Shown here one piece after another: positions 3,942 through 54,217 of a stretch of DNA of 64,000 nt. This stretch comes from Rhodoplanes sp. Z2-YC6860 (lineage in GTDB: Bacteria; Pseudomonadota; Alphaproteobacteria; Rhizobiales; Xanthobacteraceae). The stretch lies in NCBI RefSeq assembly GCF_001579845.1, contig NZ_CP007440.1:4300029-4364028 (forward strand). Reading direction: 5' to 3'. The number at the start of each line of letters is the position of its first letter. Position 1 is the first letter of the stretch. The notes beneath the pieces were generated by a model. That model did no database searches. It saw only the letters and a program-made list of their open reading frames with translations, and was not told the origin of the DNA. The position numbers were made by a program, and so were the translations under genes.

Positions 3942-4080
3942 CGAGAATCCCTCCCTGGGCTGCCCCTTTCGTCTGCGTGCCTCACATCGCGCGCGCTTGC
4001 AAGGCCGCTGCAACACGTCCTCACAAAACAAAGCCGACCGCTTGCGCGGCCGGCTCGTTATCAATTGAAAGCGTGAAAGC

Positions 4081-4371
4081 TTAGAAGCAGTAGTAGCGCC
4101 GGCTGCTCCACGGCCGATGGCACCAAGCGCCCCAGCCACGGCCACGGCCCCAACCACGGCCCCATCCGCCACGGCCACGACCACGGCCCCAGCCACCACC
4201 ACGCCCACGGCCTCCGCCGCCACGGCCGCCGCGCGCTTCAGCGCTCGTCGTGCTCGTCGCAAGGAAAACGCCGGAGGTCGTCACCGTGCCCACCGCGTAA
4301 ACTGCCAGAAGCGCACCGGCTGCCAATACGCGCGTCACGGCCTTCCGAACGCCAGTTTTCTCGATCGCCAT
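4081..4371 (-). CDS. Secreted Gly/Arg/Trp-rich repeat protein
   Basis: The 96-residue protein has an N-terminal signal/membrane segment (about residues 10-45, ending SAEA) and then a low-complexity mature part made of GRGGGWGRGRG-type repeats, closing with WCHRPWSSRRYYCF. The extreme Gly/Arg/Trp content suggests a disordered periplasmic or surface peptide. A well-formed EcfG-type promoter (GGAAC-N16-CGTT) lies about 130 bases upstream, so it is probably a general stress response gene. Function is unknown. Confidence 0.75.
   Translation of the reverse strand: MAIEKTGVRKAVTRVLAAGALLAVYAVGTVTTSGVFLATSTTSAEARGGRGGGGRGRGGGWGRGRGRGGWGRGWGRGRGWGAWCHRPWSSRRYYCF
4125..4235. repeat. Degenerate tandem repeat inside the Gly-rich gene
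   Basis: The plus strand shows repeated CCACGGCC / CCACGGCCCC units with spacing of 6-15 bases. They encode the Gly-Arg-Gly-Trp repeats of the minus-strand gene at 4081-4371. Slippage here would change repeat number in the protein. Confidence 0.7.
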
Positions 4372-4850
4372 TTAGTTCTCTCCTATTTTGTCTCGCCAAA
4401 GCGAAACCATTCCAGCGGAGTTGTGGCGCCGAAAATCCGGGCGCCGGCGGTCGCGCAAAAAAAAGCACTTGAATTCAAGTCTCGTGCTTCGTCGAAGCAA
4501 AACGGTATCGCTGCCTGAATGTTCCCAGCTGCGGGACCGGAAGCCCCGTTAACGCATGAAAGATAAGGCAAACCAGCGAAAACCGTCAAGCAACGGACGG
4601 CATTGCGTAAGCGGATCGTTTCGCAACGCAGTATGAAGCGTTGTTCAGACTGCAAGCATGTTCACTTTGACACAGCGCATGCGCGGCCGCATGTCACAAC
4701 TTCGACACGTGGACAGGGATTGCTGCGCTTGATCGCTCCGCCCGCCCGTGATGCATTCACCTCAACGTAATAACTCGTCGTCACCTCCGCGAAATTTCGC
4801 GATCGGTTGCGCTGCTTCGTCGCGGCTGACCGTCAACCCAAAGTGACCCT
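4372..4850. other. Intergenic region with promoter elements, no gene seen
   Basis: This 479-base gap separates the minus-strand Gly-rich gene from the plus-strand carbamoyltransferase gene. It holds an EcfG-type promoter for the minus strand, a perfect 14-base palindrome ACTTGAATTCAAGT at 4467-4480 just downstream of that promoter's expected start point, and a small hairpin GCTTC-GTC-GAAGC at 4487-4499. No open frame in it has coding character. Confidence 0.6.
4501..4525 (-). promoter_or_regulatory. EcfG-type (general stress response) promoter
   Basis: On the minus strand the sequence reads GGAAC (4525-4521), 16 bases, CGTT (4504-4501). This matches exactly the GGAAC-N16/17-CGTT consensus known for EcfG sigma factors of alphaproteobacteria. 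It points at the Gly-rich secreted protein gene starting at 4371, giving a leader of roughly 120 bases. Confidence 0.75.
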
Positions 4851-42143: not shown

Positions 42144-43439
42144 ATGACGACATCGGACCACCGCCACATTTCCCGCCGCACGGTGCTGCGGGGCCTCACA
42201 CAGGCTGCGGCCGTGACCGGCGGGCTTGCCGCCACCCAGGCCTTCGCTCAGAGCCGGGACCAGATGCTCGACGCCCTGATCGACGAAACGGTCAGCGGCG
42301 ACTACGGGCAGGGCTTCGATTCCGCCTCGCGCAACATCCAGATGCCCAAGGCGTCGCTGCCGACGCTGTCGCCCGCGACTGTCGAGCACACCGCGCAGGC
42401 CATCGAGCAGTTCAATGGCATCGTCACCAAGGGCGGCTGGCCCGAGGTGGCGAGGTCCGACCGGCTGCGACTCGGCGCCCGGCAGCCGGCGGTGATTGCG
42501 CTCCGCCAGCGGCTGATCACGTCGGGCGATCTCGACGCCAACGCCGGCGTGAGCGACGTTTACGATTCCTATGTCGAAGCCGCGGTGCGGCGCTTCCAGG
42601 CACGGCACGGCCTTTCGGTCGACGGCATCGTGAGGGACCAGACGCTGAAGGCGATGAATGTGCCGGCGCAGGTGCGGCTGGCACAGCTCCAGACCAACCT
42701 GGTGCGGCTGCGCAGCATGAGCGGCAACCTCGGCGCCCGCTACGTGCTCTGCAACATCCCAGCAGCGCGGATCGAGGCGATCGAGGGCAACGTCGCGGTG
42801 TCGCGGCACACCGCCGTCGCCGGAAAGCCGGACCGGCCGTCGCCCGACATCAACAGCAAGATCATCGAGATCAACTTCAATCCGTACTGGACGGTGCCGG
42901 TTTCGATCGTGCGGCGCGACCTCATCCCGAAGATGCAGGCGGAGCCGGACTATCTCACCAACAACCGCATCCGCATCTTCGACATGCGCGGCGAGGAACT
43001 CACGCCCTCGCGGATCAACTGGTATTCGCAGGAGGCGGTGAACTACCGCTTCAAGCAGGACCCGGGCGACTTCAATTCGCTCGGCTCGATCCGCATCAAC
43101 TTCCCGAGCAAGGACGGCGTGTACATGCATGACACGCCGCTCAAGAACCTGTTCGGCGAGGATCAGCGTTTCCATTCGTCGGGCTGCGTGCGCGTGCAGA
43201 ACGTCCGCGAGCTGGTGAACTGGCTCCTGAACGAGACGCCCGGCTGGTCGCGCCAGGAGATCGACGCGGTGATCAAGAGCGGCGAGCGCAAAGACGCGCG
43301 GCTGAGCAAGCCCGTGCCGCTCTACTGGGTCTATGTCACCGCCTGGGCGACGCCGGACGGCGTCATCCAGTTCCGCGAGGACATCTACAACCGCGACGCC
43401 GCCGGTCCGTCGGTGTCGACCTCGACCCGGCGCGGCTGA
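42144..43439 (+). CDS. L,D-transpeptidase family protein (LdtP-like)
   Basis: The enzyme makes 3-3 cross-links in peptidoglycan or attaches proteins to it, in the periplasm. The 431-residue protein begins with a twin-arginine signal ([19 protein letters not shown], cleavage after QAFAQ), has a peptidoglycan-binding domain (about 135-180, [21 protein letters not shown]) and a YkuD catalytic domain with the active-site segment [11 protein letters not shown] (catalytic Cys about residue 350). The class is YcbB-like in layout. LdtR, the known regulator of such a gene in Liberibacter, is encoded 3 kb upstream. Its 3' end overlaps the convergent gene by 55 bases. Confidence 0.9.
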
Positions 43440-44470
43440 GAATCCTTGAGCGCCTGCTTCACCGCAGGCGCGACCTTCGTGCCGAACAGCTCGATCGACC
43501 GCATGGTCTTGGCATGCGGCATGGTGCCGACACTCATCTGCATCAGATAGCGCTGATGGCCGAGCTTCTCATGCTGATAGAGGGTCTTCTCGATCACCTG
43601 TTCGGGGCTGCCGATCATGAGGTGCCCCTGCAACGGCAGGCCTGAATTGAACTGCGCCCGCGTGGTCGGCGGCCAGCCGCGTTCGCGGCCGATATGGCTC
43701 ATCTGCGCGGCGTAGCTCGGAAAGAACTCGTCGGCCGCCTGCTGTGAGGTGTCGGCGACGTAGCCGTGGGTGTTGATGCCGACCGGCAGTGTCTTGGGAT
43801 CGTGGCCCGCATGGGCGGCGGCCTTGTGAAACAGCTCGACGAACGGTGCGAAGCGCTCGGGCATGCCTCCGATGATCGCCAGCGCCATCGGCAGGCCCAG
43901 GGTGCCGGCGCGAACGGCCGACGGCGGGTTGCCGCCGACCGCGATCCAGATCGGAATCTTGTGCGGCGCGCGCGGATAGACCGCCTGATCATGCAGAGGA
44001 GGGCGGTGCCGGCCCTGCCAGCTCAGGCGCTCGTGGTCGCGCACCGCGATCAGCAGTTCGAGCTTCTCGGCGAACAGCTCGTCGTAATCGTTGAGGTCAT
44101 AGCCGAACAGCGGGAAGGACTCGATGAACGAGCCGCGTCCCGCCATGATCTCGGCGCGGCCGCCGGACAGCAGGTCCAGCGTTGCGAACTGCTCATAGAC
44201 CCGCACCGGATCGTCGGAGCTCAGCACCGTCACCGCGGTCGACAGCCGGATGCGCTTGGTGCGCTCGGCCGCGGCCGCAAGCAGCATCTGCGGCGCTGAC
44301 GCCAGAAAGTCCGGCCGGTGATGCTCGCCGATGCCGAACACGTCGAGGCCCACTTGATCGGCCAGCGCGATCTCTTCCATCAGATCGCGCAGCCGCTGCA
44401 CCGGATCGAGCAGCCGTCCGGTGCCGGGATCCGGCGTGTTCTCGACAAACGTGTAGACACCGATATCCAT
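43385..44470 (-). CDS. LLM-class flavin-dependent oxidoreductase
   Basis: This 361-residue protein is a luciferase-like monooxygenase using FMNH2 or a similar flavin, with a TIM-barrel fold. Motifs are [23 protein letters not shown] near residue 33-55, [30 protein letters not shown] and [20 protein letters not shown] near 174. It fits the group of LLM oxidoreductases that lack a known substrate. Its C-terminal 55 bases overlap the end of the L,D-transpeptidase gene on the other strand. Confidence 0.87.
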
Positions 44471-44598
44471 CGTCGACCTTTCGCGCCGGCGGTGCGCCTG
44501 CCAATCGCACCCACAGATAGTGGAACTTCGGCTTCAGCGCGAGCCGCTGGCGCAACGATCCATTCGCGGGCTAACCTCGTGGCGGGAGAAGCGCCGTC

Positions 44599-45579
44599 AT
44601 GAGAAGCGTCAGAAGAACGCTCGTCCTGCTTGGATTGCTGACATTGGCCGCAACTCGAGCGCAGGCCGATCCTGTCGCCGACTATCCGAACGGGCCGGTG
44701 AAGATACTGGTGCCGTTTGCGGCCGGCGGCCCGACCGACGTCGTGGCCCGTATCCTGGGGGACCTCCTCTCGATGCGTTGGGGCGGCAAGACCGTGGTGA
44801 TCGAGAACCGGCCCGGCGCCGGCACCATTGTTGCGACCGCAGCGGTTGCGAAATCCGCGCCGGACGGGCTGACGCTGCTGATGGCGACCAATTCGCTCCT
44901 CATCAATCCCGCGATCAGCCAGTCGCTGCCCTACGACACCGCCAAGGATTTCGCGCCGGTCAGCATGATCGCGGTGCAGCCAGCCGCGCTCGTCGCCAAC
45001 AAATACTTCGAGGTCAAAACCGTGGCCGACGTGGTCGCGGTCGCCAAGAAGCAGCCGGTCAATTACACCTCGCCTGGGCCGCGCGGGATCGGCGATCTGG
45101 CCGGGCAGATGCTGCGCCAGCGCACCGGCATCCCGGCCCAGAACTTCATCCACATCAACTACAACGGCAGCGCGCCGGCGCTCACCGACGTGATCGCGGG
45201 GCGGGTGCCGTTGATGTTCGACATCTGGCACTCGGCGCGGCGTTACGTCGAGACCGGCGATCTGAAGCTGATCGCGAGCGCCAGCGCCGACCGGCTGCCT
45301 GGCGCGCCCAACGTGCCGACCATCTCGGAAACCTATCCGGGCGTCGACGTCATCGCGTTCAACGCCGTGGTGGCGCAGGGCTTAACGCCCGCGCCGATCG
45401 TCGAGAAGCTGTCCGCCGACATCCGCGCCATCGTCGCCTCGGATGCCTTCCTGGATCGCGTCAAGAATCTCGGCATCAATTCATACGGCACCACGCCGGT
45501 CGAACTGCGCGCCTGGATGACCAAGGAGATCGCGCGCTGGAAAGAGGTTACTCAGGCCTCCAACATCAAGGCTGATTAA
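44599..45579 (+). CDS. Bug/TctC-family solute-binding protein
   Basis: The 326-residue protein has a signal peptide (MRSVRRTLVLLGLLTLAATRAQA) and the Bug pattern YPNGPVKILVPFAAGGPTDVVAR, LPYDTAKDFAPVSMI and PNVPTISETYPGVDV. It ends four bases before an amidohydrolase gene, so the two are an operon. No tctAB genes are near. It is the second Bug - amidohydrolase pair of the window; the substrate is probably an aromatic or aliphatic acid. Confidence 0.88.
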   Translation: MRSVRRTLVLLGLLTLAATRAQADPVADYPNGPVKILVPFAAGGPTDVVARILGDLLSMRWGGKTVVIENRPGAGTIVATAAVAKSAPDGLTLLMATNSLLINPAISQSLPYDTAKDFAPVSMIAVQPAALVANKYFEVKTVADVVAVAKKQPVNYTSPGPRGIGDLAGQMLRQRTGIPAQNFIHINYNGSAPALTDVIAGRVPLMFDIWHSARRYVETGDLKLIASASADRLPGAPNVPTISETYPGVDVIAFNAVVAQGLTPAPIVEKLSADIRAIVASDAFLDRVKNLGINSYGTTPVELRAWMTKEIARWKEVTQASNIKAD

Positions 45580-45583
45580 GCGC

Positions 45584-46657
45584 ATGTCCGAACCGGGTGC
45601 CATCGACTGCGACGTCCATCCGAGCGTGCCGGATGTCAGCGTGCTGCTGCCGTATCTCGACACGTTCTGGCGGGATTCCGTCATTGACCGGGGCTTGAGC
45701 TCGCTCGACTCCAACAGCTATCCGCTGAAATCGCCGCTCACCGCGCGGCCGGAATGGCGCGGCAAAAACGGCCTCGCGGCGGCGGACGCCAAGCAGGTCG
45801 CCGACCAGGTGTTCGGCCGCTGGCAGTCGGGCACGGCGATCCTCAACTGCCTCTACGGCGTGCAGCTCCTGTTCAGCGAGGACATGGCGGCGGCGTTCTG
45901 CCGGGCGATCAACGACTGGCTCGCGAAAGAGTGGCTCGACCGCGATCCCAGGCTTCGCGCCTCCATCGTCATCCCGATGCAGAGCCCCGAATACGCGGTC
46001 GACGAGATCGAGCGGCTGGCCAACGACAAGCGCTTCGTCCAGGTGCTGGTTCTCGTGATGCAGGAGGTGCCGCTCGGCCGCCGCCAGTTCTGGCCGATCT
46101 ATGCGGCCTGCGAGCGCCACGGCCTGCCGCTCGGCATCCACGCAGGTTCGTCCTACCGCAATCCGGTCACGTCATTGGGCTGGCCGACCTGGTACATCGA
46201 GGACTATGCGGCGCAGTCGCAAGGCTTCCAGTCGCAGATGGCGAGCCTGATCACCGAGGGCGTGTTCGCCAAGCATCCGGGGCTGAAGGTCGTGCTGATG
46301 GAGTCCGGCGTCACGTGGCTGCCAGGCTTCCTCTGGCGCTTCAGCAAGTTCTGGCGCGGCTTGCGCACCGAGGTGCCCTGGGTCGACCGCGCGCCATGGG
46401 AGATCGTCCGCGACCACTTCCGGCTGACCATGCAGCCGTTCGATGCGCCGGACGGCCGGGAAGCTGTCGAGCGCGCCATCGAGCACCTGCGCTCCGACGA
46501 GATTTTGCTGTACGCCTCGGACTATCCGCACTGGCAGTTCGACGGCGATGCCGTGGTGCCGGACGGTTTCTCGCCGGCTTTGCGCAAGAAGATCGCGGTC
46601 GACAATCCGCTTGCCACCTATCCAAGGCTCAAGAACGGGATGGCGGTCTCTCGCTAG
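45584..46657 (+). CDS. Amidohydrolase-2 family metal-dependent hydrolase/decarboxylase
   Basis: The 357-residue protein has the TIM-barrel metal motif AIDCDVHPSVPD at its start (residues 7-15), the barrel histidine in PLGIHAGSSYRNP near 185, and the catalytic aspartate in LLYASDYPHWQFDGD near 309-323. The segment VVLMESGVTWLPGFLWRFSKFWRGL is shared in form with the amidohydrolases at 30019 and 52499. It follows a Bug gene by four bases. No Rieske gene is attached in this copy. Confidence 0.85.
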   Translation: MSEPGAIDCDVHPSVPDVSVLLPYLDTFWRDSVIDRGLSSLDSNSYPLKSPLTARPEWRGKNGLAAADAKQVADQVFGRWQSGTAILNCLYGVQLLFSEDMAAAFCRAINDWLAKEWLDRDPRLRASIVIPMQSPEYAVDEIERLANDKRFVQVLVLVMQEVPLGRRQFWPIYAACERHGLPLGIHAGSSYRNPVTSLGWPTWYIEDYAAQSQGFQSQMASLITEGVFAKHPGLKVVLMESGVTWLPGFLWRFSKFWRGLRTEVPWVDRAPWEIVRDHFRLTMQPFDAPDGREAVERAIEHLRSDEILLYASDYPHWQFDGDAVVPDGFSPALRKKIAVDNPLATYPRLKNGMAVSR

Positions 46658-46714: not shown

Positions 46715-47098
46715 TCAGGGCACAACCTGAGTTTTCAGATATCCAATGACATTTACAATGTCTTCGTCTTTCTTCAATCCCGGAAACATCATCTTGGTGC
46801 CCGGCACCTTTACCTGAGGATTTCGCAGATACTCCATCAGCGTGGGTTCGTCCCAGACGATGCCGGAGTTCTTGTTCGCGTCGGAATAGTGATAGTCGGG
46901 AAACGTTCCTGCCTTCCGTCCAACGACGCCGGTCAGTACGGGACCGATCGAGTTCAACGCGTGGTCGCCGATCTGATGGCAAGCCCGGCACGCGTTGAAT
47001 ATCTTCTGACCGGCCGCGACGTCCTGGGCTTTGGCGCCCATCGGGACCGACAACCAAAGCGCGACGACCAGCAAACTGCTCCTGGTGAACAACTGCAT
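46715..47098 (-). CDS. Class I c-type cytochrome
   Basis: The 127-residue protein has a signal peptide (ending MGAKAQDVA) and one heme site CRACH (about residue 37-41). The sixth ligand methionine is in VPGTKMMFPGLK near 101-108. It looks like cytochrome c2 (GPVLTGVVGRKAGTFPDYHYSDANKNSGIVW), an electron carrier in the periplasm. It is the last gene of the metallophosphoesterase - cupredoxin - cytochrome c run on the minus strand, so it may take electrons from the cupredoxin or serve the same pathway. Confidence 0.9.
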   Translation of the reverse strand: MQLFTRSSLLVVALWLSVPMGAKAQDVAAGQKIFNACRACHQIGDHALNSIGPVLTGVVGRKAGTFPDYHYSDANKNSGIVWDEPTLMEYLRNPQVKVPGTKMMFPGLKKDEDIVNVIGYLKTQVVP

Positions 47099-47149: not shown

Positions 47150-47485
47150 CTATGGCGTGACGACGATCTGTCCCTTCATGCGAGGGTGGAGACTGCAGAA
47201 GTAATCGTAAGTTCCCGGCGTCTCAAACTTGAACGCGAACTTGTCTTCGCCGTCGAGTGCCTGCGAGCGAAAGCTGCCATCGATCGCGACGACAGTGTGC
47301 ACGATGTCGTCGTCGTTCTCCCACGTCACCGTCGTGCCGACCGGGACGCTCAGAGTCGGGGACTTGAACGTGAAATTTTCGATGGTGATGCTTGCCGGAC
47401 CTGGCAGCGCCACAGCGGCGTAGATCATGCAGGACGTCGCCCCCCCGATCAGGAAGGCGAGCGTGAGATCAGATTTGATGGACAT
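47150..47485 (-). CDS. Cupredoxin-domain protein (amicyanin/pseudoazurin-like)
   Basis: The 111-residue protein has one N-terminal signal/anchor segment and then a type I copper domain. Copper ligands are the His of DDDIVHTVVAIDG and the Cys, His and Met of YFCSLHPRMKGQIVV near the C-terminus. The start at 47485 follows from the signal peptide; the frame extends upstream to 47563 without coding character. It lies 51 bases from the cytochrome c gene and 91 bases from the metallophosphoesterase gene, all on one strand. It should carry electrons in the periplasm. Confidence 0.87.
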   Translation of the reverse strand: MSIKSDLTLAFLIGGATSCMIYAAVALPGPASITIENFTFKSPTLSVPVGTTVTWENDDDIVHTVVAIDGSFRSQALDGEDKFAFKFETPGTYDYFCSLHPRMKGQIVVTP

Positions 47486-47576
47486 GACGACCGACGTTTT
47501 CGAGAGGAAGATTGCTAGGGGCCGCATCTTCCGCCGAACGTCGGCGAAAGATGCGTGTGACATGGCGCGACGCGAC

Positions 47577-48521
47577 TCAGGCTTCCGAGAGCGCCTTGTC
47601 GACGATTGCCAGCGGTTGTGTCCCCGCCTTCACTGTCACTGAGGCGGTTCCCAGGACGCTTCGAAGCTTGTCGTCGGGCACCTTCATGGGGCCCGGCGAC
47701 GGCGCTGTACCAGGCGCGGGCTGTGGGAAGGCGGTCGAGCGGGCCGTATGGAACGTGACCGAGCCTTCGACCTTCTGCATCACCTGATGGATATGGCCAT
47801 TGAGGACGGTCACCGACCCGAACCGCTTGAGCAAACCGAGTGCTTGAGCCGAATCGTCGGTGCCCCAGCCCCATTCGGCACTGACCGTCCACAGTGGGAT
47901 ATGCGCGAACACCACGATGGGCGTGGAAGCGGTCTTGGCCTTGAGGTCGGCTTCGAGCCACTTGAGTTGCTCGGCACCCAGCGATCCCATGCCGCCACCC
48001 TTGAGATCGGCCACGTTGACCAAACCGACGAAGTGCACGCCGTTGTGATCGAACGAATACCAGCCGGTGCCCATGGCCTTCGTCCGCTTACCGTATCGGT
48101 CCAGGTAGGCCTTGCCCTGCTGCTCGTCGACGATGTCGTGCTCGCCAGGGACGTAGAACGTGTCGAGCTTGGTTTTGCCGATCACCTGATCGGCGTCATC
48201 GAACTCGTTCGGCTTCGAAAGATGCGTGATATCGCCGGTATGAATCATGAAGCTCGGCTTTTTCGGCAAAGCGACGATTTTGCCAATGGCCTCGTCCAAG
48301 GTACCGAGGGGGTTGGTATTGGCCGGCTTATTGAAGCCGATGTGGCTGTCCGAAATCTGGAGGAAGGTAAATCCAGTAGCGGCGGCGTTGGCTTCGGAAA
48401 TCCCGAGCAGTGTGGAACTCGGGACACCGCCTGTTACCGTCCACAGCATGCCCGTTCCAGCCCAAAGCATGCATTCCAAAGCACCACGCCGGCTGACGCC
48501 GTCGCCTTCATCTTCGGCCAT
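47577..48521 (-). CDS. Exported metallophosphoesterase (calcineurin-like)
   Basis: The 314-residue protein has a twin-arginine-type signal (GVSRRGALECMLWAGTGM) and a calcineurin-like phosphoesterase domain with the metal motifs SDSHIGFN near 57, HTGDITH near 94, GEHD near 126 and NGHIHQ near 236. GEHD in place of the common GNHD is a small but notable change at a metal-site residue. It leads the run with the cupredoxin and cytochrome c genes. A candidate ECF promoter lies 36-61 bases upstream. Substrate unknown. Confidence 0.87.
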   Translation of the reverse strand: MAEDEGDGVSRRGALECMLWAGTGMLWTVTGGVPSSTLLGISEANAAATGFTFLQISDSHIGFNKPANTNPLGTLDEAIGKIVALPKKPSFMIHTGDITHLSKPNEFDDADQVIGKTKLDTFYVPGEHDIVDEQQGKAYLDRYGKRTKAMGTGWYSFDHNGVHFVGLVNVADLKGGGMGSLGAEQLKWLEADLKAKTASTPIVVFAHIPLWTVSAEWGWGTDDSAQALGLLKRFGSVTVLNGHIHQVMQKVEGSVTFHTARSTAFPQPAPGTAPSPGPMKVPDDKLRSVLGTASVTVKAGTQPLAIVDKALSEA

Positions 48522-48556: not shown

Positions 48557-48582
48557 GATCAGCGGTGCCTCCGCTTTATTCC
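48557..48582 (-). promoter_or_regulatory. Candidate ECF sigma promoter before the metallophosphoesterase operon
   Basis: On the minus strand GGAATAA (48582-48576) is followed, after 16 bases, by ATC (48559-48557). The -35-type box and spacer match the two promoters of the nearby ECF sigma unit exactly, and the last box differs by one base (ATC for GTC). The distance to the gene start (36 bases) fits a promoter. Confidence 0.5.
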
Positions 48583-48794: not shown

Positions 48795-49586
48795 CTACAA
48801 CAGCGCCGGCAATTCCCGCAGCTCGCCCGCGTTGAGATCGGAGATCGCGCGGAACGCCATGCCGCCGCGGCACCAGCTCGCGATGTTGTAGCCTTCCGCG
48901 GTTTCGATCTTCACCGCATCGGCGTCATTGCTCGGCCAGATGAACACGTTGATCTGGTGCAGGCGCTTCTTGTAGACGACGACCGCGACGCGCTTGCCGT
49001 CGATATAGTCGAGCCGGCCGCCGACCAGCGTGTAGCCCTCGGCGCTGAGGTCCTTGACCACCGGCGTGAACTCGAGCCGGCCCGCAAACCACGGCTTCAC
49101 ATTGTGCTGGTCGTTCGACACCACCTGCACAGTGCTGTCCTGGATCAGCGAGCGCACATGGGCGGCGAGCACGTCGCGGTTGATCAGCTCCTGATTGTCG
49201 ACCGTCTGCAGATGCCACCACGTGCCCGACACCGAGAGCACGCAGACCACCAGCATGGCGGCGATCTGGCGGAGCACCGGGGTAAAACTACGGGTCCTCG
49301 CGGCGAGCCTCGCCGCAAACGACACCGGCGGCGCAGGCTCCGCGACGATCTCGGCCATTTCCGACTGCTGCTCAACTGCGAGCCGCGCCTGGATGCGCCG
49401 GGCGAGCCCCTGCGGCGCACGCTCACGCGCGCCGGCAATCTTGGCGCTCAGCTCTTTCAGCTCGTCGCGATAGCGCGCGCAGGCCGGACAGCTTTCGGCG
49501 TGCTCGGCGACGCTCTGGCGCTGCCCGTTCGACAGCTCGCCATCGAGTAGGGCGCCGATGCGCTCGCGCGCATGATCACAGCGCAT
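48795..49586 (-). CDS. Anti-sigma factor with zinc finger and one membrane helix
   Basis: The 263-residue protein has an N-terminal zinc-binding anti-sigma domain (MRCDHARERIGALLDGEL with HAESCPACARYR, the H-x3-C-x2-C finger, about residues 28-35), one membrane helix near 105-125 (IAAMLVVCVLSVSGTWW) and a periplasmic C-terminal domain of about 135 residues. It should hold the ECF sigma factor at the membrane and release it on a periplasmic signal. It overlaps the sigma gene by 11 bases. The C-terminal domain is not recognised and would be the sensor. Confidence 0.9.
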   Translation of the reverse strand: MRCDHARERIGALLDGELSNGQRQSVAEHAESCPACARYRDELKELSAKIAGARERAPQGLARRIQARLAVEQQSEMAEIVAEPAPPVSFAARLAARTRSFTPVLRQIAAMLVVCVLSVSGTWWHLQTVDNQELINRDVLAAHVRSLIQDSTVQVVSNDQHNVKPWFAGRLEFTPVVKDLSAEGYTLVGGRLDYIDGKRVAVVVYKKRLHQINVFIWPSNDADAVKIETAEGYNIASWCRGGMAFRAISDLNAGELRELPALL

Positions 49587-50194: not shown

Positions 50195-50221
50195 TGACTC
50201 CGGGAAGGGCGCGTTTATTCC
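50195..50221 (-). promoter_or_regulatory. ECF promoter of the sigma/anti-sigma operon
   Basis: On the minus strand GGAATAA (50221-50215), 16 bases and GTCA (50198-50195) form an ECF-type promoter, 59 bases before the sigma gene start at 50136. The divergent unit has the same element. Confidence 0.7.
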
Positions 50222-50260
50222 AGGGCTTAGGCCGGCCTTCCACGGAGCTCTCGGGACCCG

Positions 50261-50286
50261 GGAATAATCCCTGGCGGGCAAGAGTC
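50261..50286 (+). promoter_or_regulatory. ECF promoter of the MBL - TPR - DoxX operon
   Basis: GGAATAA (50261-50267), 16 bases and GTC (50284-50286) match the divergent promoter in boxes and spacing. It lies 58 bases before the MBL hydrolase start at 50345. Confidence 0.7.
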
Positions 50287-50344: not shown

Positions 50345-51316
50345 ATGCCTAACCTCAACCGTCGCGATTTCGTCACATCGACCGCGTTCGCCGCGGCCCT
50401 GGGATTCACCGGAAAACTCGCCGTTTCTCCGGCTTTCGCCCTGCAAGACGTGCCCGACCCCAAGCCGGGCTTCCACAAATACAAGGTCGGCTCGGTCGAG
50501 GTGACCGCGCTCTATGACGGCATCTGGCGCAAGCCCCACGATCCGGGCTTCATCCGCAACGCCTCGGTCGACGAGACCAAGGCAGAGCTGGAGAAGGCCC
50601 ACCAGATCACCGAGTTCATGCCGATTCCGCTGACCGTCGTGGTTCTCAAGATCAACGGCGAGCACATCCTGGTGGATTCCGGCTCCGGCGCCGGCCAGTG
50701 GCAGCCGACCGCGGGCCATATCGCGGGCTACATGCAAGCGGCCGGCATCGATCCGAAGTCGATCAAGAAGATCCTGATCTCGCACTTCCACCCGGATCAC
50801 ATCTTCGGCCTCCTGGAAAAGGGCACCAACAAGCCGACGTTCCCCGACGCCGAGCTGATCGTCACGTCGGCCGAGTACAAGTGGTGGACCGAGGAGGGCC
50901 GGATCGAGAAGCTGCCGGAGGCCCGCAAGGGCCTCGGCCAGCGCATCCATGCCTCGTTCCCGAACTGGAAGAACTTCAGGCTGATCGACGGCGAGAAGGA
51001 AGTCGCGCCAGGCGTGCGCCTGATCAACACGCCGGGCCACACGCCGGGCCATGCGTCGTTCGTTGTCAGCTCCGGCAACAAGACGCTGATGGTGTCGAAC
51101 GACGTGGCCTATGTGCCGGCGCTGCTCGCGCCGCATCCGGAATGGCAGGGCACCTACGATCAGGACGGCCCGCTCGCCGTCACGACCCGCAGGAAACTGC
51201 TCGACCAGGTGATTGCCGACAAGATGATGATCTGCGGTGCGCACTTCCCGTTCCCCGGCACCGGTCAGTTCGTCAAGGACGGCGACCACTACGCGTTCAC
51301 GACGGTCTCGGCCTAG
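50345..51316 (+). CDS. Exported MBL-fold metallo-hydrolase
   Basis: The 323-residue protein has a twin-arginine signal (LNRRDFVTSTAFAAALGF, cleavage near AFALQD) and a metallo-beta-lactamase fold with the zinc motif HFHPDH at about residue 148-153, a second His in NTPGHTPGHASFV near 230, and the C-terminal MMICGAHFPFPG. Substrate unknown; relatives include periplasmic hydrolases with various roles. It is the first gene of an operon under the ECF-type promoter, followed by a TPR protein and a DoxX protein. Confidence 0.9.
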   Translation: MPNLNRRDFVTSTAFAAALGFTGKLAVSPAFALQDVPDPKPGFHKYKVGSVEVTALYDGIWRKPHDPGFIRNASVDETKAELEKAHQITEFMPIPLTVVVLKINGEHILVDSGSGAGQWQPTAGHIAGYMQAAGIDPKSIKKILISHFHPDHIFGLLEKGTNKPTFPDAELIVTSAEYKWWTEEGRIEKLPEARKGLGQRIHASFPNWKNFRLIDGEKEVAPGVRLINTPGHTPGHASFVVSSGNKTLMVSNDVAYVPALLAPHPEWQGTYDQDGPLAVTTRRKLLDQVIADKMMICGAHFPFPGTGQFVKDGDHYAFTTVSA

Positions 51317-51364
51317 GGCGTGATCCCGAAAAGTGTGAAGCGGTTTTCGGAAAAGATCACGCCC
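51316..51364. repeat. Rhizobiales-type palindromic intergenic repeat
   Basis: GGGCGTGATC ... GATCACGCCC flank an inner CCGAAAA / TTTTCGG pair, giving a long interrupted palindrome beginning at the MBL gene's stop. Copies of this CGTGATC-CGAAAA type are common intergenic repeats in Bradyrhizobium- and Mesorhizobium-like genomes from memory. As a hairpin it may weaken readthrough into the TPR gene. Confidence 0.8.
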
Positions 51365-51487
51365 AAACACTAAAAGCCGCCCAGCCGCCTGAACCATCCA
51401 CATGCGATCGATCGGGACGGATGCGTTCCGATCGAGCCGGCCTCCCTCGGCCTTCGTGACCCCAAGCTTTTGAAAGGAGAAAGACTC

Positions 51488-51943
51488 ATGAAAACTCTTC
51501 GTTCGACCCTGATCGCCTTTGCACTCCTCACCGGCGTTGCCGCGACCCCGGTGCTCGCCGTCGACAACATGGAGAGCACCGATGCCCCGGACCTCACCGC
51601 GGTGCGCGCCAGCATCAAAGCCAAGGACTACAAGAGCGCCATCACCGAGCTCACCGGCATGATCGACAAGGGCATTCAGCATGCCGATGTCTACAATCTG
51701 CTCGGCTTCAGTCTGCGCCATGAGGGCGACATGAAGGGTGCCCAGACGTTCTATGCCAAGGCGCTGGATTACAATCCCGAGCACAAGGGCGCGCTGGAAT
51801 ATCAGGGCGAGATGTTCGTGAAACTCGGCCAGTTCGACAAGGCGCAGGCCAACCTTACCAAGCTCGCCAAGCTCTGCCCGCAAGGCTGCGAGGAGCGGGA
51901 AGATTTGGAAGAAGCGATCAAGACGAAGGTCGTCAAGGACTAA
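51488..51943 (+). CDS. Exported TPR-repeat protein
   Basis: The 151-residue protein has a signal peptide (MKTLRSTLIAFALLTGVAATPVLAVDN) and about three tetratricopeptide units (YKSAITELTGMIDKG, ADVYNLLGFSLRHEGDMKGAQTFYAKAL, GALEYQGEMFVKLGQFDKAQANLTKL), then a disulfide-capable pair CPQGCEE. It probably acts as a periplasmic scaffold. A GAAAGGAG site precedes the ATG. It lies nine bases before the DoxX gene and follows the MBL gene, so the three may be a unit. Confidence 0.85.
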   Translation: MKTLRSTLIAFALLTGVAATPVLAVDNMESTDAPDLTAVRASIKAKDYKSAITELTGMIDKGIQHADVYNLLGFSLRHEGDMKGAQTFYAKALDYNPEHKGALEYQGEMFVKLGQFDKAQANLTKLAKLCPQGCEEREDLEEAIKTKVVKD

Positions 51944-51952
51944 GTCTGGAAC

Positions 51953-52369
51953 ATGAACGACCCGCTCAACCACACATTCGGGCCTGCGGCTGACGCCGCA
52001 GGCCGCATCTTGCTCGCGGCGCTGTTTCTCTACGAAGCTTATGCCAAGCTGACGGGCTACGCTTTGGCGGTGAAATACGCAGCGGCCTTTGGCGTGCCGT
52101 CGACGCTGATGCCGCTCGCGATCGCGACCGAACTCGGTTGCGGCACGCTGCTGGTGCTCGGCCTGTTCACGCGGCTCGCCGGCATCACTCTCGCGGGCTT
52201 CTGCCTGGTGACGGCTTTCATTTTTCACACCAAGTTCAGCGACGGCAATCAGGTTCTGCACTTCGGCAAGGATATCGCGCTGGCCGGCGCCTTCCTGTTC
52301 GTTGCGGGCCACGGCGCGGGGCCGTTGTCGCTCGATGCGCGGTTCTTCCGAAGACGGGAACCGGAGTGA
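51953..52369 (+). CDS. DoxX-family membrane protein
   Basis: The 138-residue protein has four membrane helices in the DoxX layout, with RILLAALFLYEAYAKLTGYA near residue 17 and CGTLLVLGLFTRLAG near 62. DoxX proteins are linked to thiol and oxidative stress and sometimes to quinone-dependent oxidation. It ends the MBL - TPR - DoxX run under the ECF-type promoter, which is a common context for such proteins. Confidence 0.87.
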   Translation: MNDPLNHTFGPAADAAGRILLAALFLYEAYAKLTGYALAVKYAAAFGVPSTLMPLAIATELGCGTLLVLGLFTRLAGITLAGFCLVTAFIFHTKFSDGNQVLHFGKDIALAGAFLFVAGHGAGPLSLDARFFRRREPE

Positions 52370-52498
52370 AAGCAGCCGGTTTAGCCCCCAAATCCGGCAT
52401 GCTATAATCGGCTTGTGGCCGGCGAATCCCGGCTGCCCACTCCACGAAAGGGCCGGTGCGCCACCGGCCAAATCTGGTCCGCCAGAGGGAGGCCGCGC

Positions 52499-53599
52499 AT
52501 GAACATCGAGGTCCGGGCGAAGGAGCGGTCGCAAAAGACCAGGCTCGACATCGTCGACTGCGATTTCCATCCCAAGCTCACACTCGAGCAGTTGAAGCCG
52601 TTCCTCTCCAATCAGTGGTGGAGCTATCTGCAGACCTACGGCAACCGCTCGCGGCACGGCTACGCCAAGGGCTATGCGTACCCCAAGATGACGCCGCAGG
52701 CGGCGCGCCGGGATGCCTGGCCGCCCACCGGCGGACTGCCGGCGAGTGATCTCGAATTCGTCCAGCAGCAGCATCTCGACTTTTACGGCATCAGCGCCGC
52801 GATCATGAATCCGCTGTCGCCGACCGGGCAGGGCGATCAGAACATCGAGCTGTCGATCGCGATGGCGGCCGCTTCGAACGAGGCCCAGGTCGCGCAATGG
52901 ACCGCGCGCGAGCCGCGCTGCAAGGCGTCGGTCGTGGTGCCCTATGAGGATGGCGTGGCCTCCGCCAAGGAGGTCCGCAAGCACGCCGGCGACAGAAATT
53001 ATGCCCAGGTCTTCATGCTGAGCCGCACCGGCGAGGCGGCCGGGCGCAAGCGCTACTGGCCGATCTACGAGGCGGCGGTCGAGGCAGGGCTGCCGGTCGG
53101 CATCCATGCGTTCGGCTATTCGGGCTGGCCGATGACCGGTTCGGGCTATCCGTCGTTCTACATCGAGGAGATGACCGAGCATGCCGTCTCGGCCCAGGCC
53201 ATGGTGACGAGCTTCATCATGGAGGGCGTGTTCGAGCGGCTGCCGGAATTGAAGGTCGTGCTCATCGAATGCGGCTTCGGCTGGCTGCCGGCGCTCGGCT
53301 GGCGGCTCGACAAGCACTGGAAGCGGCTGAAGGACGAGGTGCCGCATCTGAAGAAGGCGCCGTCGGAATACATCCGCGAGCATTTCTGGGTGACAACACA
53401 GCCGATGGAGGAGACGGAAAATCCGGACCAGCTCATCGAGGTGATGAACTGGATCGGCATGGACCGGATCATGTTCTCCAGCGACTATCCGCACTGGGAT
53501 TTCGACGATCCGTTCGTCACGCTGCCGCCATCTCTCACCGAGGCGCAGCGCCGGGATGTCTACGCCGGCAACGCGCGAAAGCTTTATCGGTTGGATTGA
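52499..53599 (+). CDS. Amidohydrolase-2 family metal-dependent hydrolase/decarboxylase
   Basis: The 366-residue protein has the TIM-barrel metal motif IVDCDFHPKLT near residue 18, a barrel histidine in VGIHAFGYSGWP near 201, and the catalytic aspartate in MFSSDYPHWDFDDP near 322-335. It shares VVLIECGFGWLPALGWRLDKHWKRLKDEVP, a longer version of the segment seen in the other two amidohydrolases. GAGGGAGG precedes the ATG. A compound palindromic repeat separates it from a Rieske gene. Substrate is not known. Confidence 0.85.
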   Translation: MNIEVRAKERSQKTRLDIVDCDFHPKLTLEQLKPFLSNQWWSYLQTYGNRSRHGYAKGYAYPKMTPQAARRDAWPPTGGLPASDLEFVQQQHLDFYGISAAIMNPLSPTGQGDQNIELSIAMAAASNEAQVAQWTAREPRCKASVVVPYEDGVASAKEVRKHAGDRNYAQVFMLSRTGEAAGRKRYWPIYEAAVEAGLPVGIHAFGYSGWPMTGSGYPSFYIEEMTEHAVSAQAMVTSFIMEGVFERLPELKVVLIECGFGWLPALGWRLDKHWKRLKDEVPHLKKAPSEYIREHFWVTTQPMEETENPDQLIEVMNWIGMDRIMFSSDYPHWDFDDPFVTLPPSLTEAQRRDVYAGNARKLYRLD

Positions 53600-53610
53600 T
53601 GCACGTGCCT

Positions 53611-53793
53611 CTCGTGTCCCGGGCGCAATGCATCGCGAAGCGTTGCGTTGCAGACCCGGGACCCAGCTTTCTTTACGTTGCAGCCAATCGGGGTCCCGGA
53701 TCAGCCATAGCGCGTCAAAGACGCGCGTATACGCGCTTATGGCACCACTCCGCGCCTTCGGCGCTACGCGCTGCATCGCATCCGGGACACGAG
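53611..53793. repeat. Compound palindromic repeat (REP-like)
   Basis: CTCGTGTCCCGG at 53611-53622 and its exact reverse complement at 53782-53793 flank about 160 bases that contain internal GGGTCCCGG / CCCGGGACCC pairs and CGCGC-type hairpins. The whole gap between the amidohydrolase and Rieske genes is made of it. It looks like a mobile or amplified intergenic element. Confidence 0.8.
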
Positions 53794-53800
53794 ACCACCC

Positions 53801-54217
53801 ATGGCTAAAAAACACGTCGTCGCCGCGTTAGGCGAAATCCCGCCCGGCGGGAAAAAGCTCGTGTCCGCCGATGGGCGCGCCATCGTGGTCTTCAACCTCG
53901 ACGGCGAGTTCTTCGCGCTGTCGAACCGCTGCCCGCATCGCGGCGGCAGCCTTTGCGAAGGCAATATCACCGGGCTCGTCTTGTCCGATGAGCCCGGCCA
54001 TTACGAATATATCCGCCGCGGCGAGATCATCCGCTGCCCCTGGCACGCCTGGGAGTTCGACATCCGCACCGGCAAGTCCTGGTGCGACCCGGACAAGATC
54101 AAGGCGCGCCGCTTCGGAGTCTCGGTGGAGAAGGGCGCAAAGCTGATCGAAGGTCCCTACGTGGCAGAGTCCTTCAAGGTCAGCGTCGAGGACGACTACG
54201 TGGTGGTCGAGGCCTGA
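53801..54217 (+). CDS. Stand-alone Rieske [2Fe-2S] protein
   Basis: The 138-residue protein is one Rieske domain with CPHRGGSLCEG (C-x-H near 45) and CPWHAWEFDIRTG (C-x2-H near 78). The insertion between the motifs (GLVLSDEPGHYEYIRRGEIIR) is longer than in simple ferredoxins but similar in form to the protein at 29272. It ends 21 bases before an ABC_sub_bind gene. It presumably passes electrons to an oxygenase that is not present in the window. Confidence 0.9.
   Translation: MAKKHVVAALGEIPPGGKKLVSADGRAIVVFNLDGEFFALSNRCPHRGGSLCEGNITGLVLSDEPGHYEYIRRGEIIRCPWHAWEFDIRTGKSWCDPDKIKARRFGVSVEKGAKLIEGPYVAESFKVSVEDDYVVVEA

Follow-up and report, generated by a model that had tools for sequence, protein, structure and literature searches.

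EcfG (ECF15), the sigma factor of the general stress response, reads promoters of the form GGAAC-N16/17-GTT and uses NepR/PhyR. The ECF26 group (RpoE1, RpoE3, RpoE4 and RpoE6 of S. meliloti; SigE of Starkeya novella) combines a -35 element GGAATA(A) with a GTC-type -10, both like the elements of the locus described here. The mapped S. meliloti promoters of rpoE4 and SMc01418-rpoE1 are exactly GGAATAA-N16-GTC, with the spacing of our locus too, and the cross-species ECF26 consensus is -35 GGAATA and -10 GT, as given in the accessible portion of PMC6180224. For RpoE1 the available part of PMC3616915 gives the consensus GAAT-N18-GTCT, and sigE of St. novella is itself without the consensus according to the accessible text of PMC6527743. 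As far as the available excerpts of this literature tell, RpoE1 and RpoE4 are autoregulated, and the group has linked anti-sigma factors, small regulons and redox-type targets (sulfite oxidase, cytochrome c, pseudoazurin); the predicted system and the redox-type genes reported below resemble them in these respects. A DoxX-family gene is under an ECF sigma factor in Haemophilus influenzae (RpoE2, hypochlorite) and in Caulobacter crescentus (sigma-F, heavy metals), as described in the accessible portions of PMC7907618 and PMC3511200.

Here we analysed a 64 kb stretch of the Rhodoplanes sp. Z2-YC6860 genome (the window), in which an ECF sigma factor gene and a gene for an MBL-fold hydrolase diverge from a 208-base gap (sigma ATG 50136 on the minus strand to MBL ATG 50345 on the plus strand). 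The gap holds two predicted ECF promoters that face outward, with 39 bases separating their -35 elements (Table 1). Their letters, coordinates, 16-base spacers and outward orientation, as given in the initial annotation of this DNA, were exact on re-check.

Table 1 Predicted promoters and genes of the sigma factor locus, in window coordinates
Feature	Position	Strand	Details
Predicted ECF promoter, sigma/anti-sigma operon	50196..50221	minus	GGAATAA-N16-GTC (-35 50221-50215, -10 50198-50196), 59 nt to sigma ATG; positionally kept in 9/9 orthologous gaps
Predicted ECF promoter, MBL-TPR-DoxX genes	50261..50286	plus	GGAATAA-N16-GTC (-35 50261-50267, -10 50284-50286), 58 nt to MBL ATG; positionally kept in 9/9 orthologous gaps
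Third predicted promoter	48557..48582	minus	GGAATAA-N16-ATC, 35 nt to metallophosphoesterase ATG
ECF sigma factor, 186 aa	49576..50136	minus	Pfam Sigma70_r2 + Sigma70_r4_2, scanned on the longer 194-aa frame; alignment
Anti-sigma factor	48795..49586	minus	zf-HC2 zinc finger (HAESCPAC), hydrophobic segment at about residues 101-119
MBL-fold hydrolase	50345..51316	plus	twin-arginine-like N-terminus (NRRDFV, by eye), HxHxDH motif
TPR protein	51488..51943	plus	adjoins MBL in 9/9 orthologous loci
DoxX-family membrane protein	51953..52369	plus	near MBL in 7/9 orthologous loci (window counted)
Metallophosphoesterase	47577..48521	minus	twin-arginine-like N-terminus (by eye); DSH, GDITH, GHIH motifs
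Cupredoxin (plastocyanin/azurin-type)	47150..47563	minus	start codon uncertain
c-type cytochrome	46715..47098	minus	CRACH

The sigma factor is a two-domain sigma70 protein with regions 2 and 4 alone (Pfam), and its start was placed at ATG 50136 rather than at GTG 50160 because orthologues align from the former. The anti-sigma frame shares 11 bases with the sigma frame, and its product is a predicted inhibitor with a zf-HC2 match (6.9e-10), an H-x3-C-x2-C motif and one hydrophobic segment. By sequence, the solved structures nearest to the MBL protein are 7y7u, 4le6, 5hif and 1p9e, which represent methyl parathion hydrolase, organophosphorus hydrolase and dihydrocoumarin/acyl-homoserine-lactone lactonases. 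Methyl parathion hydrolase and both kinds of lactonase have the MBL fold. Our literature search turned up no published ECF control of such an MBL gene. Directly past the MBL stop codon lies a near-palindromic stretch (51318-51365; GTGATCCCGAAAAGTG...TTTTCGGAAAAGATCAC), whose first 16 bases are single-copy in the window and for which a repeat search gave no inverted pair. Genes for two amidohydrolases and a Rieske protein, together with genes for a luciferase-like protein and the binding protein of a tripartite transporter, lie in the flanks (43385-46657 and 52415-54217) and are likewise kept around the block in a Xanthobacteraceae MAG (L009); the first amidohydrolase, the luciferase-like protein and the transporter protein were named by eye.

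Taken alone, the window is weak to modest evidence for paired promoters. The exact motif GGAATAA-N16-GTC occurs twice in it, solely as the divergent pair, and matches with up to two mismatches are not enriched there (32 against 25.95 ± 4.98 expected; 11 of 100 shuffles were equally high). Throughout the genome (8.19 Mb) the exact motif has 8 matches, including the two of the divergent pair, and the reversed control has 6; it is not enriched there either. When the 208-base gap was shuffled with dinucleotides preserved, an outward pair of any 7-mer and 3-mer at spacers of 12-20 was present in 407 of 5000 shuffles, so the initial view that the pair is hard to explain by chance was too strong for the window alone. 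We accept the divergent pair as real because both boxes are conserved in relatives.

Orthologues were collected by a relatives search, one scan of named genomes, and sigma searches over the family, order and class. At E 1e-48 close sigma relatives are rare, occurring in 5 of 391 family, 3 of 397 order and 1 of 385 class genomes (overlapping sets, own genome counted). Eight further genomes, among them the Xanthobacteraceae MAG, Inquilinus limosus DSM 16000 and Aestuariivirga sp. YIM B02566, have a sigma relative (53-82% identity) next to an MBL gene that diverges from it and precedes a TPR gene. With the window they make nine distinct genomes, L055 having been dropped as a duplicate of L009. 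In every gap a box points toward each gene, so that 18 of 18 sites in the nine genomes read GGAAT-N18-[GA]T[CT], with the -10 loosened from GTC to RTY after a first, stricter scan; strict GGAATAA-N16-GTC is found at 7 of the 18. A search for orthologous loci without the motif, the check proposed along with the pair, thus ended with both boxes present in all nine genomes once the -10 was relaxed.

The spacing is the most informative trait of these gaps. Of the hits counted over all spacers in the nine gaps, 18 have N16, one has N10 and 8 in total fall at N21-24; spacers of 11-15 and 17-20 have no hit. All but one of the 19 GGAAT occurrences belong to boxes, and when each gap was shuffled 2000 times, the rate at which boxes arose in both directions did not exceed 0.001 for any of the nine. 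GGAAT is common to all 18 sites and is followed by A in 17; the letters after the spacer are G (17), A or G (14 and 4), G or A (12 and 6), T (18) and C (17). The distance from box to box differs among loci, whereas the -35/-10 spacing is constant. Two identical GTC boxes, as initially described, are thus a local accident of the window: the 18 orthologous sites have GTC or ATC, once GTT, with a purine before. At L012, where the sigma factor has 48% identity and no MBL gene adjoins, GTA stands in place of RTC.

A third transcription unit behind the same motif had not been noticed in the initial annotation. The metallophosphoesterase, cupredoxin and cytochrome c genes lie downstream of the anti-sigma gene in the same orientation, with a box of their own (48582-48557) that reads TGATC, without the clade's usual G. 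The other eight of the nine divergent-block genomes yielded no metallophosphoesterase homologue at E 1e-20, so we count the third unit as a feature of the window's genome and not of the block. Sigma factors at 38-50% identity are often encoded behind metallophosphoesterase and cupredoxin genes and ahead of an anti-sigma gene. Loci of this build (L193 and L196-L201, from the window's order and from Burkholderiales) share with the window the sigma clade, the box type, and the metallophosphoesterase and cupredoxin families; unlike the window, these seven are single co-directional gene series, with no divergent MBL block seen. Upstream of their metallophosphoesterase genes the box has N16 in six (one with GGAATT) and N15 in L198. 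Two more loci of the same kind, L110 and L111, have other gene orders, and at L109 no box was found near the sigma gene. We found no published name for metallophosphoesterase-cupredoxin-sigma-anti-sigma loci. A literature search for such clusters gave nothing relevant besides two ECF papers with DoxX genes, which is no proof of absence.

The motif itself is already known, being a published ECF26 promoter of which the locus has a variant. It had been considered possibly new; however, S. meliloti ECF26 promoters are letter-for-letter the same (PMC6180224, accessible portion), next to the RpoE1 consensus in the available part of PMC3616915. ECF26 membership of the window's sigma factor, our working idea from these published promoters, was dropped after the trees. 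The ECF26 reference set comprised the named RpoE6 of pSymA and six sigma factors near sulfite-oxidase-type genes (PF03404, among 40 fetched regions). Two trees placed the window's sigma factor with the metallophosphoesterase-linked ones, apart from RpoE6 and the six sulfite-oxidase-linked ones, and a forced grouping with ECF26 was rejected with an AU p of 0.0099, the groups of this test having been named after the first tree. L041 was omitted from the second tree (long branch); the first had placed it among the metallophosphoesterase-linked sigma factors. Because of that naming and the only moderately supported wider clade (88/91), we regard ECF26 membership as not borne out rather than disproved. 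The -35 GGAATA of ECF26 is present in the window and at the orthologous sites. In the -10, ECF26 has CGTC/GT, whereas both window sites have AGTC and the clade as a whole purine-RTC. Apart from the separate branch and this -10, the window differs from ECF26 in its neighbours, which are MBL-TPR-DoxX and metallophosphoesterase genes and not sulfite oxidase.

Other ECF groups were considered as well. The EcfG (ECF15) promoter is likewise alphaproteobacterial, with GGAA in the -35 and GT in the -10 as in the window, but was rejected, as the fifth base is T rather than C at 18 of 18 sites and the triplet is RTC, with GTT at 1 of 18; the anti-sigma factor here is of the zinc-finger type instead of NepR/PhyR. 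EcfF/ECF16 of Bradyrhizobium was rejected too, its motif GTAAC(g,a)-N14-15-(c,t)CG(t,a) being different (PMC3420878, accessible portion). For EcfQ/ECF33 of Bradyrhizobium that paper, in its accessible part, reports that no common motif was found and that the aligned class 33 genes are without anti-sigma genes. ECF33, a group outside the sampling of our sigma trees, may still be that of the window's sigma factor.

All 30 aligned sigma factors of the window's clade and ECF26 together have the hexapeptide GTVMSR, at what we take to be the recognition helix. Of eight other sigma factors of the window's genome, two matched the helix pattern, with GTIKSR and GTVKSR, and six gave no comparable helix. 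The base preceding the -10 triplet is a purine at all 28 listed sites of the window's clade, versus C at 8 ECF26-type sites picked by position, 3 of which have an N15 spacer. Both sets are confined to matches upstream of sigma, metallophosphoesterase or sulfite-oxidase genes, with the exception of a DUF305 site (L202, among the 8); matches that fall within a sigma gene, as at L167, L172 and L195, are among those left out. One of the 8, at L154, lies about 1.1 kb before the sulfite-oxidase frame. Two sites near the sigma gene of L111, one of them with T before the triplet, do not count among the 28. Of the eight sites of Table 1 of PMC6180224, by our own reading of the accessible portion, seven have C before the triplet and the eighth has T.

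The window's genome also encodes an ECF26-like sigma factor, L040, which groups with the sulfite-oxidase-linked L154 (99/97, first tree). In the region of the ECF26-like sigma gene (L202, G000:C1:3469000-3478500), this gene (4047-4571, minus) is downstream of genes for DUF305 and YNCE-like beta-propeller proteins, and GGAATAG-N15-CGTC stands upstream of the DUF305 gene, ahead of the sigma gene. We tentatively suggest, at somewhat less than even odds, that two ECF lineages of the same cell, with a common -35 and GTVMSR, are kept apart by the purine or C before the triplet, and that each sigma factor changes together with its own and its neighbour's promoter. This base may insulate the two systems from each other. 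If true, divergent pairs would be a natural record of sigma-promoter co-evolution that avoids cross-talk.

A tenth divergent locus, L206 (sigma 48%), has sigma and anti-sigma genes opposite MBL-TPR-DoxX, with a short secreted-like frame between them. The RTY pattern has no match in its gap. Instead there are four boxes, all N16-CTC, which partly by eye form two divergent pairs flanking the short frame; three have GGAATA as -35 and one AGAATA (AGAATAA at the box nearest the sigma gene). The locus looks as if its sigma factor and promoters had changed together. Ten loci with divergent pairs, one with a matching -10 change on both sides, make a compact data set on ECF promoter specificity. Incidentally, the divergent pair of this locus (L206/L235, G439) was seemingly duplicated around the short frame with its secreted-like start, and a short secreted-looking frame lies between box and MBL gene at L212 and L213 too.

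The box was also followed at MBL loci without an adjacent sigma gene. A set of 29 MBL loci (L206-L234) consists of L206, one repeat of L060 (L215, dropped as a duplicate), seven loci that have TPR and DoxX and lack a sigma gene beside them, and 20 others, in which neither TPR nor DoxX was found within the ~1.5 kb fetched flanks. A box occurs within 400 bases upstream at 5 of the 7 (all but L209 and L211) versus 0 of the 20, where the Fisher p of 0.00026 overstates the case and the control is suggestive, not clean, because the 20 are more distant (MBL identity 40-52%, versus 61-63% in the 7) and the 7 come from two genera. A short frame intervenes between box and MBL gene in 2 of the 5 positive loci (by eye). 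All eight genomes carrying L206-L213 encode a sigma relative at 44-50% identity; at E 1e-30 one is found in only 12 of the 81 genomes of the relatives search (own genome counted). Six of the seven remote sigma matches have a box 364-566 nt upstream, a distance with space enough for another gene; none was found before the seventh (L242). The remote sigma factors are absent from the sigma trees. Before seven weaker sigma matches (L243-L249) no box of this kind was found.

These observations bear differently on the ways in which the pair could be explained. Chance similarity within one gap could draw on the shuffled gaps, some of which also hold an outward 7+3 pair, but both boxes stand at fixed spacing in 9 of 9 genomes, a comparison that already refutes chance and leaves it practically no probability. 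The gap has inverted symmetry, and the boxes might be the two halves of an inverted repeat to which a transcription factor binds, rather than two promoters. We find this very improbable, as the distance between boxes is free to vary and the spacing inside each is not, and as single boxes precede genes that have no divergent partner box.

The remaining alternatives concern which sigma factor is at work. With the same -35, a near-identical -10, a zinc-finger type anti-sigma factor and GTVMSR in all 30 aligned rows, the window's sigma factor could be a plain ECF26 member with a routine ECF26 promoter pair; its place among the metallophosphoesterase-linked sigma factors in both trees and the rejection of the forced grouping render this unlikely. 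That the promoters are read mainly by L040, the adjacency of the other sigma gene being incidental, is a rather improbable reading, even though the -35 and the GTVMSR helix are common to both, the window's two sites end in GTC like ECF26 sites, and a foreign ECF26 promoter responds to S. meliloti RpoE1, RpoE4 and RpoE6, though not to RpoE3 (PMC10880074, accessible portion). The box tracks the window-type sigma factor, adjacent or remote, and the purine that precedes the triplet at all 28 listed sites of the clade sets them against the ECF26-type ones with their C and, in three, their N15 spacer.

We prefer to read the boxes as divergent -35/-10 promoters of the adjacent ECF sigma factor, which would be autoregulated, held by its anti-sigma factor, and also drive the MBL-TPR-DoxX genes and the third unit; we assign this reading a probability of about 0.86. 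What we observed directly are the boxes with their conserved presence and spacing, the order of the genes and the sigma phylogeny; we infer which sigma factor reads these promoters, how it is released and how far the operons extend. A membrane anti-sigma factor, with a zinc finger, a single hydrophobic segment and a presumably periplasmic C-terminal part, would hold the sigma factor until some signal frees it. RNA polymerase with the sigma factor would then transcribe the sigma/anti-sigma operon leftward, which would give positive autoregulation plus a reset, the MBL-TPR-DoxX genes rightward, and the metallophosphoesterase, cupredoxin and cytochrome c genes from the third box. An autoregulated divergent ECF sigma factor that also controls the MBL gene is what had been expected initially, and it stays the best reading, with both boxes in all nine genomes that have the same block.

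Several of the encoded proteins appear to be exported, to judge by the twin-arginine-like N-termini and by the presence of a cupredoxin and a cytochrome c, and we therefore suspect a small periplasmic or envelope response of a redox or detoxification type. The zinc-finger anti-sigma factor with its single hydrophobic segment likewise suggests a periplasmic response. Sulfite, hypochlorite and metals may be named as candidate signals, as guesses by analogy. A DoxX gene in an ECF stress response is a likeness to H. influenzae RpoE2 and C. crescentus sigma-F; these, however, belong to other sigma groups with other anti-sigma factors, and in the accessible accounts their DoxX genes sit with families of unknown function (e.g. 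DUF2063), not with MBL and TPR. A divergent layout is ordinary for ECF sigma factors, and the interest of the locus lies in its sister-lineage relation to ECF26. What began as a motif spotted by eye is now a defined, testable proposal for a small regulon: three transcription units are predicted for it, and one base is a candidate marker to tell it from ECF26. The proposal also supplies a putative regulator for exported MBL hydrolases, metallophosphoesterases and cupredoxins that otherwise lack an explanation.

In our best reading, the sigma factor has a very small, probably periplasmic regulon and shares its -35 with ECF26. The pattern GGAATAR-N16-RTC has 26 matches in the window's genome, three being the window's sites, versus 14 for the reversed control (about twofold), and a large genome-wide regulon is not supported. 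Fifteen of the other 23 matches were inspected, the minus-strand ones without being turned and the surroundings read roughly; most of these distant matches overlap a long open frame, and the one plausible distant target is a DUF2189 membrane protein behind G000 4037918-4037893. Two identical 26-base matches (G000:C1:589531-589556 and 7244035-7244060; L001 and L008) lie 6.6 Mb apart, possibly as one duplicated stretch, and the L001 copy falls inside open frames. In the eight related genomes GGAATA-N15-GRRTC gives 40 matches, 14 of them divergent boxes, versus 5 for the reversed control, which may run low from composition. Among the nine of the other 26 that were inspected, the clearest two stand before a DUF2147 protein in G044 and before a cytochrome c gene of Inquilinus. 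In Inquilinus limosus (L115:546-2716, minus), GGAATAA-N16-ATC lies 45 nt before the cytochrome c ATG, and a beta-lactamase-family (PF00144) gene follows, possibly as an extra member of the regulon.
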